DNA of 64,000 bases from Colwellia sp. PAMC 20917 (GTDB lineage Bacteria; Pseudomonadota; Gammaproteobacteria; Enterobacterales; Alteromonadaceae): the NCBI RefSeq assembly GCF_001767295.1, contig NZ_CP014944.1, forward strand, positions 868,001-932,000, written 5' to 3'. Below the pieces are notes generated by a model that saw nothing but the letters and a program-made list of their open reading frames with translations, was not told the origin of the DNA and did not search any database. A program made the position numbers and the translations under genes. Every line of letters begins with the position of its first letter. Position 1 is the stretch's first letter. Shown here in pieces: positions 47,717-52,301 of the stretch.

Positions 47717-48241
47717 ATGACGCTAGAAGACGAACAACTCAATAATCCCTTGCACGGGCTTAAATTAGATACACTTTTAAATGAAGTGTATGATCATTAT
47801 GGTTGGGAAATTCTAGCGGAATATACCAATATTAATTGTTTTAAAAACAAGCCTAGTATTGAATCTAGCTTAAAGTTTTTGCGTAAGACCGAGTGGGCAC
47901 GTGAAAAAATGGAACGTTTTTATTTATATCAATTTAAGAACTTACCTAAAGCCGATGATGAACAATATGAAATTCCACCGCGTCTGCGAGTGATACCAGC
48001 ACGCCAGAAACCTAAAGACCCTGCCGTACTCATTTTAGGACAAGCCCCTATCCCGACAATCAGATCATCGAATTTTTCTGATAACAAACCTTCATCACAA
48101 GGTCGAGATAGCAGAAGTAATAGCAGTAAGGGGAGCTATAAAGATAAAAGTGAACAGGGCTTTGCTCGTCGAACAGAAAAACCTGAACGTTCAAAGCCAG
48201 CTAATGCATCTTCAAACCCTTACTCGGATTCTCCTAAGTAA
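47717..48241 (+). CDS. VF530-family (DUF2132) putative DNA-binding protein
   Basis: The product has 174 aa. The first 70 residues hold the whole VF530 fold: [34 protein letters not shown] and [21 protein letters not shown]530 proteins have a SAP-like helical core that is thought to bind DNA. The last 70 residues are low-complexity, rich in Ser, Lys, Arg and Asp, and likely disordered; most homologues lack this tail. No function is known for the family. It follows the SDR gene on the same strand. Confidence 0.83.
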
Positions 48242-48280: not shown

Positions 48281-49042
48281 TTAATCTGTCAACATATCAA
48301 TAAATTTCAAACTAAAATTATAAATATCTCCAGGCCATCGCGCCGATAAGTAGTTTCTATCTTTGACGATAAAGCCACGTGACAAGTGCTGTAAATCATC
48401 ACGAGCTATTGGCAAACTGCCGGCAACAAACTGAGTTTTACTGGCAAGTGCTGCCACTAATTCATCTTCTGTGGTTGTTTCTGGATACGTTAAATAATAA
48501 TCATCTAACCAAAGTCGAGTTAATTGGAAAGCCATAAGCTCTTGACGCTTTAATAGCCCGGTACATTGATAATTATAGATGACCGATTTTTGACTTTTAG
48601 GATCAATACTTCTTGCTGGAATTAATACGCCATGACAAACAGCCGCGACGGGTTTATTTTCATTAAAAAAATCAACCACCAATCTTTGCAATACCTCTGA
48701 TTCTAAATATTCTTTTACCCCTTTGTCATGCCCACCCGGTAATAATAATCCATCGAAGTCACTGGCTTTGACATCGGTGTAAGATAAAGGCTTATTAAAT
48801 TCAGCTGATTTTTCCAGTTGACGATAGGCATTTATTGCATCTTGTCTAGCCTGTAATAAGGGTTTGAGCAAACCCAAACTTTTTCCAGTCAGCATAATAT
48901 CGTCGGCCGTCGCGACCTTGCCATCAGGCGTTATAAAGGTCATTTCAACCTGCTGTTCTTTTAGCAATAACCAAGGAATAGCAACTTCTGAAGGATCGCA
49001 ACCATAGCGAGGTAGCGGGATCAGTACTTTTTTGTTATGCAT
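48281..49042 (-). CDS. DJ-1/PfpI-type glutamine amidotransferase-like protein
   Basis: The product has 253 aa. The core has VLIPLPRYGCDPSEVAIPWL at the N-terminus, FDGLLLPGGHDKGVKEYL and the nucleophile elbow PVAAVCHGVLIPAR with the reactive Cys. A C-terminal region with GLLKRQELMAFQLTRLWLDD is typical of the larger DJ-1/PfpI branch. Members include glyoxalase-like and chaperone-like enzymes; which applies is unknown. Its start overlaps the end of the methyltransferase gene by 8 bases, so the two are translationally coupled. Confidence 0.82.
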   Translation of the reverse strand: MHNKKVLIPLPRYGCDPSEVAIPWLLLKEQQVEMTFITPDGKVATADDIMLTGKSLGLLKPLLQARQDAINAYRQLEKSAEFNKPLSYTDVKASDFDGLLLPGGHDKGVKEYLESEVLQRLVVDFFNENKPVAAVCHGVLIPARSIDPKSQKSVIYNYQCTGLLKRQELMAFQLTRLWLDDYYLTYPETTTEDELVAALASKTQFVAGSLPIARDDLQHLSRGFIVKDRNYLSARWPGDIYNFSLKFIDMLTD

Positions 49043-49901
49043 CTTTATTACCCCTATTTAAGATTTCTTTGTCAGCCTGTTCTTGTTGCAAGAAATAAGT
49101 CCATTGCTGCTCGTAGGCAAACATTTGCTGATGTTTCTTAGTGGCTAAATGCATTTGCTTGTCGTGCTCTGTGGCGAAAGCGCCTGTATGACAAGCTAGG
49201 CATTTTTTATCTTCAGGCACCCTACTTTTGCGGTTATAGGTTATATAGTCATCGCTGCGAGCATCAAACATCGCTTTACAGTTTTCTAAAGACGCTTCGC
49301 TGTATATATAAGTTGTACCTTGAGTTGATTTAACATGTTTATCTCTGTTTACATTCCTGACTTTATAATCTGGAAATTTAGTAATATCAAAGAAAAAACG
49401 ACCAATATAGTTGATATCTGTATTAGTGATTAACGCTTTTTCAATATTCCATTGCAGATAAGGTTTAACATTCTTTGATGTGATCAACGCAAGTTTTGCA
49501 CCATTTTCATCAAGAAAGTATTGAAAGCAGTTCAACAAATATTTTCTCAGTAAAGCTCTGTTTAAGGTATTAACACTTAATTGTTGGCACTGAGCTTGAA
49601 AAGCTTGTTCAGAAGGAAAAGCGGGTAATAATGGAAATTGAAAGATCACCAAATCAAATGATTTTTTAGCTAACGTCCCCCAAGTATTTTCATCAGTAAC
49701 GTCAAAATCAGTGATGACTTGGCAATTGTCCTGCTGTAACTGCTGATAATAAACATCACCGTACTTTTCCTGTAAACAAGCCATGCTGTCATAGATGGTT
49801 GCTGTCAGCTGCTGCGGTTGATGATGTTTTAGTAAGGAGGCAGAAAAAGATAAGTCGCCATCACCAACCGTTAAAACACGCCATTTGGGATCAATATACA
49901 T
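49035..49901 (-). CDS. Bmt5-like (DUF2431) methyltransferase with C-terminal zinc finger
   Basis: The product has 288 aa. Residues about 5-195 match the Rossmann-type DUF2431/Bmt5 domain, which in yeast methylates U2634 of 25S rRNA: WRVLTVGDGDLSFSASLLKH is the SAM-binding motif and FDLVIFQFPLLPAF the catalytic-strand region. The last 60 residues contain a finger, CLACHTGAFATEHDKQMHLA then TKKH, with spacing C234-x2-C237-x13-H251-x5-H257. This is the layout of U1/JAZ-type C2H2 fingers that bind RNA in eukaryotes. It may guide the enzyme to an RNA target. The gene overlaps the PfpI-like gene downstream by 8 bases. Confidence 0.8.
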   Translation of the reverse strand: MYIDPKWRVLTVGDGDLSFSASLLKHHQPQQLTATIYDSMACLQEKYGDVYYQQLQQDNCQVITDFDVTDENTWGTLAKKSFDLVIFQFPLLPAFPSEQAFQAQCQQLSVNTLNRALLRKYLLNCFQYFLDENGAKLALITSKNVKPYLQWNIEKALITNTDINYIGRFFFDITKFPDYKVRNVNRDKHVKSTQGTTYIYSEASLENCKAMFDARSDDYITYNRKSRVPEDKKCLACHTGAFATEHDKQMHLATKKHQQMFAYEQQWTYFLQQEQADKEILNRGNKDA

Positions 49902-51515: not shown

Positions 51516-51815
51516 AAAAAGAAAAGTCTCCGCTGAATGAATAAAGTTAAGCAGGTTAAACAGATCATGCCACGACTTGCGCTATGGCTTGGCTATGATT
51601 ACCCGTGTCTGAAATTGTTATCGCTTAAACATATTGATAAAAGATATTTTGCGATAAAAAATACTTTGCGGTAAAACAAAGCCGTCTGCGCTGAATGAAT
51701 AAAGTTAAGCAGGTTAAACAGATTATGCCACAACTTGCTTGTTGAGCAATTATAAAGGTTTTCTCGCCACGACTTGCGCTATGGCTTGGCTATGATTACC
51801 CGTGTCTGAAATTGT
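51493..51815. repeat. Tandem duplication of the glpK/methyltransferase junction
   Basis: A unit holding glpK codons 1-8, its leader and the last codons of the methyltransferase gene appears twice. attgataaaaggtactttgc (51493 on) matches 51633 on; cgctgaatgaataaagttaa (51531 on) matches 51689 on; gccacgacttgcgctatggc (51569 on) matches 51766 on. In the left copy the 3' codons of the methyltransferase are 39 bases shorter, as expected from a deletion between short repeats of gccacracttgc (51727 and 51766). The extra glpK start has ATG changed to ATC. Confidence 0.88.
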
Positions 51816-52301
51816 TGTCCCTTCAAAAGAATGAATAATTTGCCAACCAGCAAAATGCTCAAGTAATTCTCCTTTTTTTAATAAGAAATCAGGGTTTTTG
51901 GGGCGACCAAGAAAAGCTTGTCCTAAGGTGAAGGTTTCATAAATAACGAGACCATTAGGAACTACTGCCGCTTTAATCTGCTCTATAAGTGGTCGGTGTA
52001 AGTAGCGAAAAACCATTACGGCACTATAACTATTTTCTACTAATGGCTGAGAAAACCTTTGTTCAAAGTCAATAAGCCAAAAGGTGGCTAATGTTGATTG
52101 ATATTTATCTGCATCATGACTTATTGCTTGCTGAACATTCGCTAATGACTGCGTGTTAATATCAGCAAAAGTCACCGCTAAATTTTTCTCTAGGCAAAAC
52201 AAACCATTCCTGCCATTGCCACAAGCCAGATCTAAGATGGGTAATGAATTTTCATGAGGGTTAAGTTCAGGTAAATATTTTTCTAGCAAGGAGGAATGCA
52301 T
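51750..52301 (-). CDS. Small class I SAM-dependent methyltransferase
   Basis: The product has 183 aa. The SAM motif is PILDLACGNGRNGLFCLEKN, with the acidic end of strand 2 at VTFADINTQSLANV. YSAVMVFRYLHRPLIEQIKA and VIYETFTLGQAFLGRPKNPD follow. The pattern resembles TehB-like and related small methyltransferases, but the substrate is unknown. It has no signal peptide. Its last codons are repeated in the 51493-51815 duplication. Confidence 0.78.
   Translation of the reverse strand: MHSSLLEKYLPELNPHENSLPILDLACGNGRNGLFCLEKNLAVTFADINTQSLANVQQAISHDADKYQSTLATFWLIDFEQRFSQPLVENSYSAVMVFRYLHRPLIEQIKAAVVPNGLVIYETFTLGQAFLGRPKNPDFLLKKGELLEHFAGWQIIHSFEGTTISDTGNHSQAIAQVVARKPL

Follow-up and report, generated by a model that had tools for sequence, protein, structure and literature searches.

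Colwellia sp. PAMC 20917 encodes a variant of the BMT5-like family in which the methyltransferase domain is joined to a conserved C-terminal C2H2 finger, and the protein is probably an RNA methyltransferase, with this finger as its hold on structured RNA. The gene lies at 49035..49901 on the minus strand of the window (the whole stretch of 64,000 nucleotides analysed here) and specifies 288 amino acids plus stop. As its most probable function, at a rough probability of 0.6, we propose a stand-alone SAM-dependent RNA base methyltransferase whose U1/JAZ-like finger binds structured RNA and delivers the target base. This explanation is supported by the match to the family profile PF10354, the invariant ligands of the finger, its resemblance to U1/JAZ fingers and a predicted class I fold; zinc binding, RNA binding, an RNA substrate, methylation at uridine N3 and a division of labour between the two domains are what we infer.

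The methyltransferase domain

An earlier note, made from the bare letters of this DNA, had read the gene as a Bmt5-like (DUF2431) methyltransferase, and profile searches bear this out: residues 10-182 (49356..49874, minus strand) match the BMT5-like domain PF10354 (DUF2431) with an E-value of 8.4e-31 and a score of 108 bits (cut-off 24.7), and positions 1-167 of the 168 in the profile are aligned. The same profile matches every one of the aligned relatives (27/27 and 57/57). Two motifs lie inside the domain: GDGDLSFS (13-20), which by analogy we take to be the SAM site, and FQFPL (87-91), whose F87, F89, P90 and L91 are invariant while Q88 is replaced by N in one of 67 clusters (80% identity). 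Finger-less relatives have FQFPH, FQFPN, FNFPN, FNCPH or FNFPM at the position of FQFPL, and this dissimilarity means that the chemistry may differ from that of Bmt5. When the genome was searched with the protein, the window gene was the only place matched at E up to 0.001.

Conservation and an AlphaFold2 model together draw attention to the loop R182-T193 (RNVNRDKHVKST in the window protein; 49323..49358, minus strand), in which R182, N183, V184, R186 and T193 are invariant over the 67 clusters; its stretch 184-189 is modelled at a pLDDT below 50 despite that conservation. From its conserved, flexible and basic character, the loop is a candidate for substrate binding.

The AlphaFold2 model of the whole protein, built with 57 sequences, has a mean pLDDT of 86.6 and a pTM of 0.86, and Foldseek and VIA matched it to class I methyltransferases and kindred folds (over residues 1-203, with VIA Z reaching 11.9), so that a class I methyltransferase-type fold is predicted. 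The top rows mix small-molecule, polyamine and RNA methyltransferases and do not single out RNA; matches this generic settle the model's fold class but do not indicate a substrate. Sequence searches beyond Pfam gave little: an NCBIfam scan of the window protein yielded two weak rows alone (14.6 and 13.9 bits versus 243 and 242), phmmer against the PDB at E up to 1 a single row, Protein K7 (E 0.51), and the family profile against the PDB at E up to 10 a single row, ZFa, by way of the finger (E 1.6), with no methyltransferase relative in either PDB search.

A conserved C-terminal finger

On the same chain as the methyltransferase, and at the four positions that the earlier note had named, alignments and profile searches identify a U1/JAZ-like C2H2 finger with one extra loop residue, C234-x2-C237-x13-H251-x5-H257 (49131..49202, minus strand). 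The note's own doubt had been that these cysteines and histidines might vary among homologues. They do not: each of the four ligands, and G240 as well, is unchanged in 27/27 and 57/57 aligned relatives and in 67/67 clusters, and over the 67 clusters they are the only invariant residues of the finger. The exact pattern C..C.{13}H.{5}H occurs in 105 of 105 distinct homologues, and the finger pattern is found in all 80 loci from genome_contigs (the best 80 of 140 relatives) as well as in all 36 homologues from 147 genomes of relatives, the window's own genome included. These sequences were collected by protein comparison or with the patterns I[TS]SK[DN]VKPY and RNV[DN]R[DN]K[HF]V, without use of the finger, so the conservation of the finger is no effect of how they were selected. 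Altogether 116 homologues (30 loci and 6 stretches from the 147 genomes, and the best 80 of 140 from genome_contigs) reduce to 105 distinct sequences and to 67 clusters at 80% identity.

Mean column entropy over these clusters is 1.53 bits for residues 1-201, 2.49 for the linker (202-231), 1.74 for the finger, 2.22 for residues 258-270 and 2.56 for the tail; the finger is a constrained island after a freely varying linker. Its second histidine belongs to a long C-terminal helix seen in the models and the alignment (residues 255-287; 49041..49139, minus strand), within which W267 is nearly invariant (62 of 66 clusters). The segment before that histidine is mostly basic, with K255 in 55 and K256 in 44 of the 67 clusters.

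Relation to U1/JAZ-type fingers

The U1/JAZ spacing ascribed to the finger in the earlier note holds as a resemblance, which both PDB matches and a consensus sequence support, but not to the letter. A profile of the finger alone (the tail region of 22 sequences), run against the PDB at E up to 10, matched four sequences in all: the RNA-binding protein ZFa (1zu1, E 0.0052), zinc finger protein 346 (2mkd, E 0.14) and, twice, splicing factor 3A subunit 2 (E 0.16 and 1.7). We group the ZNF346 and SF3A2 fingers as JAZ/U1-type. The first-domain alignments with ZFa, ZNF346 and SF3A2 each show a one-residue gap relative to our finger, and the loop from C237 to H251 is one residue longer than in those fingers in 105/105 distinct sequences.

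A typed consensus of the finger, which is an average and corresponds to no natural protein, scored 21.1 bits (E 3.6e-4) against zf-C2H2_jaz (PF12171), under the cut-off of 22.6, and the same consensus with the extra residue removed scored 33.7 bits (E 3.9e-8). At E up to 1 this profile matches 13 of 27 family members (best 0.003) and 16 of 57 (best 5.1e-4), but no natural member among the 27 and 57 scanned reaches the cut-off, judging by best E-values that are poorer than that of the consensus, and at the same threshold it matches neither the window protein nor anything else in its genome. Of the two profiles that the earlier note expected on one chain, therefore, DUF2431 exceeds its cut-off and zf-C2H2_jaz falls under its own in natural sequences. 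Matches at E up to 1, none over the cut-off, also occurred in 5 of 14 control genomes, so that single weak matches mean little; other C2H2 families, zf-DBF and zf-C2H2_2 among them, match about as weakly. A JAZ/U1-like finger with a conserved one-residue insertion fits these results, and to say that the finger is a zf-C2H2_jaz is too strong.

Compared with U1/JAZ-type fingers at large (PF12171 zf-C2H2_jaz and PF12874 zf-met; ZFa, ZNF346/JAZ and SF3A2), the bacterial finger has C-x2-C, H-x5-H and S-K-K-H in common, but it is single, is fused to a methyltransferase and has the extra residue between C237 and H251, with which its consensus stays under the zf-C2H2_jaz cut-off.

The blocks holding the finger have pLDDT values of 85-95 in the AlphaFold model of the whole protein and of 86-92 in the tail folded alone, for which the mean is 83.2. 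Foldseek returned ten rows for the finger model, none significant (best E 2.6), which also include DBF4, FAAP20, CTCF and a PHD finger. When the ten chains were aligned with the model by VIA, six rows reached a Z of 2 or more, four of them RNA-protein complexes (spliceosomal E complex, Z 4.3; TUT1 with U6, 3.6; U11 snRNP, 3.0; U2 snRNP, 2.6) and two CDC7-DBF4 (Z 3.4 each). These modelled rows agree with a U1-type finger and are no proof of one.

Distribution of the finger-bearing family

The gene is present in 36 of 147 genomes of relatives and absent from 111, and among 369 genomes spread evenly over the class it occurs solely in the window's own. PF10354 itself is sparse: matches over its cut-off were found in 3 of 321 genomes of the class (the window's own included), in 5 of 398 genomes of the phylum, three of which belong to the finger family, and in none of 14 control genomes. 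Named carriers in genome_contigs are Colwellia, Pseudocolwellia, Thalassotalea, Psychromonas, Moritella, Pseudoalteromonas, Oceanospirillum, Oleispira, Thalassolituus and Neiella, genera that we take to be largely marine. A quick tree of 111 rows places a long branch, supported at 99% SH-aLRT, between the 105 finger-bearing sequences and six finger-less ones (L032 and five of the 19 loci from elsewhere in the phylum described below), a result that carries the tool's warning on long branches.

A mobile or phage gene, viral carriage and a role in defence were each considered and rejected: 50,697 phage records gave no tblastn match, the 40 viral_contigs stretches that match a pattern encode no relative, and PADLOC had nothing to report up to an E-value of 0.1. 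Thirteen plasmid records contain a relative, all from Pseudoalteromonas, and 12 of them are 680 kb or larger, the size of chromids; the thirteenth, 65 kb long, comes from strain CuT4-3, and a match of equal identity and equal score is present in that strain's 792 kb record too.

Finger-less relatives and their AlkB neighbours

Elsewhere in the phylum, 19 loci (L115, L118, L132-L136 and L144-L155) contain BMT5-like genes that match PF10354 over the cut-off, a count that leaves out L119-L123 and L137, which fall under it, and L032 and L033, which come from the window's own class. Eighteen of these loci are from the class of genome G562, which we suspect to be the Alphaproteobacteria; the nineteenth, L118, is unassigned as to class. 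The finger pattern occurs in the matching reading frames of none of the 19 (some frames are broken or cut off). They thus have PF10354 in common with the window protein and differ from it in lacking the finger and in what lies beside them.

Downstream on the same strand, in 18 of the 19, is a gene for an AlkB-family 2OG-Fe(II) oxygenase, directly adjacent or overlapping in 17 (as in L115, where the pair occupies 1282-2046 and 2054-2662) and about 700 bases off in L148; the exception is L135, which has a stop inside the match. For the two AlkB proteins tested, the best PDB match was ALKBH8 (E 3.8e-27 and 6.8e-30), followed by DNA demethylases. The BMT5-like and AlkB proteins may form a methyltransferase-oxygenase pair for RNA modification.

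A different arrangement is seen at L033, which comes from a genome of 1.9 Mb in the same class as the window: the reading frame at 223-2679 (818 aa) contains a BMT5-like domain, acidic stretches of low complexity and a C-terminal region that, judged by eye, looks like a cysteine protease.

Mechanism and substrate

If our preferred reading is right, the C-terminal finger would grip a helical, structured part of the RNA and so bring the base to be modified within reach of the methyltransferase domain; the flexible loop with its invariant R-N-V (182-193) would close on the substrate, and the BMT5-like domain would methylate the base with SAM as donor. That the atom is uridine N3 is suggested by the chemistry of Bmt5 and Bmt6, which may not carry over. 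The target is more likely to be rRNA or tRNA than anything else.

The review PMC7694415 describes Bmt5 and Bmt6 as making m3U at U2634 and U2843 of yeast large rRNA. Comparison with these 25S rRNA m3U methyltransferases was made through the family profile: PF10354 is common to both, while the C-terminal finger, FQFPL and the R-N-V loop set the bacterial protein apart. As their bacterial counterpart, the protein would specifically be an rRNA uridine-N3 methyltransferase that places m3U on 23S or 16S rRNA in addition to that made by RsmE. We regard this more specific assignment as unlikely, although it is the strongest of the alternatives. In its favour, PF10354 is matched over nearly the whole profile, members of that family make this mark on yeast large rRNA (PMC7694415), and genes of both the RsmE family (PF04452, E 9.0e-55) and the RlmH family (PF02590, E 2.0e-47) are present elsewhere in the genome, so that a simple replacement of either enzyme, which we had considered, is rejected. 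Against it, the motif at FQFPL departs from that of the finger-less relatives, and a gene missing from 111 of the 147 relatives' genomes, with a domain missing from 14/14 controls, would be making a dispensable mark.

Less probable than an rRNA mark is the modification of a uridine in tRNA. This possibility comes from the finger-less loci, with their 18 AlkB genes and the ALKBH8 matches of the two tested; ALKBH8 acts on the wobble uridine of tRNA. The association does not extend to the finger-bearing family: its listed neighbour families include no AlkB, the AlkB protein had no match in the six Colwellia genomes, and among the window's relatives AlkB is not commoner with the gene (12/36 genomes) than without it (42/111), a rough test in which many matches are weak. 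The AlkB proteins, moreover, match DNA demethylases as well.

The finger might also be a protein-docking or structural module, directed for instance at a ribosomal protein, on an enzyme that still modifies RNA. C2H2 fingers can bind proteins too, and in this one invariance is confined to the four ligands and G240, with zf-DBF, zf-C2H2_2 and other C2H2 families matching about as weakly as zf-C2H2_jaz. Yet the four PDB sequence matches are all to fingers of RNA-binding or spliceosomal proteins, and the lysines at 255 and 256 make the segment before the second histidine basic in most clusters; we consider docking doubtful and rank it behind both choices of RNA substrate. A small-molecule or protein substrate, with the BMT5-like domain a mere relationship of fold, would suit the generic fold rows, in which small-molecule, polyamine and RNA methyltransferases appear alike, but a PF10354 score far over the cut-off, coupled with an RNA-type finger, makes it highly improbable.

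Our favoured explanation, an RNA base methyltransferase guided by its finger, has a wider counterpart to which we give somewhat less than an even chance: that the family represents an undescribed class of bacterial RNA-modifying enzyme, BMT5-like and steered by a U1/JAZ finger of a kind known from eukaryotes, which places a lineage-specific mark on the rRNA or tRNA of marine gammaproteobacteria. Most of what is mapped of bacterial RNA modification comes from a handful of model organisms. If the proposal is true, the mark would be missing from maps built on model species without the gene, and this conserved family of marine bacteria, with its finger of eukaryotic kind, would point to a modification that has perhaps never been sought in these organisms. 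The family suggests that U1/JAZ-like fingers function in bacteria too, and it would make a domain known from work in yeast accessible to bacterial genetics.

Within the collection of papers searched, there was no assay of a bacterial BMT5-like or DUF2431 member, the DUF2431 reports found being concerned with plants (soybean included) and domain mining and none with bacteria. No bacterial zf-C2H2_jaz finger is mentioned in the titles and abstract openings retrieved, and the searches found no U1-type finger joined to a methyltransferase in bacteria and no 3-methyluridine in Pseudoalteromonas. Matches for prokaryotic C2H2 fingers concern Haloferax, and those for dsRNA-binding JAZ in prokaryotes plant genome editing only.

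Gene neighbourhood

Over the 80 loci (the best 80 of 140), no neighbouring family is general, the largest occurring in 35, which is consistent with a gene acting on its own. Next to the methyltransferase gene in the window is a PfpI/ThiJ-like gene (48281..49042, minus strand; PF17124, E 8.1e-26; PF01965, E 1.6e-16), to which the earlier note had seen it coupled. The 8-base overlap of the two reading frames (49035-49042) is there, but the coupling is local: a PfpI relative lies near the gene in only 4 of the best 80 of 140 loci, some of which have flanks under 6 kb. All four are Colwellia, with an 8-base overlap in one (L034), a gap in two and an arrangement that depends on the choice of start codon in the last. 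On this count we rejected the PfpI-like protein as a functional partner, and it is probably not part of the methyltransferase system.

Two further genes lie close by. A VF530-family gene (PF09905, E 3.1e-31) is found at 47717-48241, and its product ends in a long tail rich in Ser, Arg and Lys; VF530 relatives flank the methyltransferase in 9 of the 80 loci, four in Colwellia and five in Psychromonas. Two genes upstream of the methyltransferase gene and on the same strand, at 51750-52301, lies a second small SAM-dependent methyltransferase, which is TehB-like (PF03848, E 6.7e-08).
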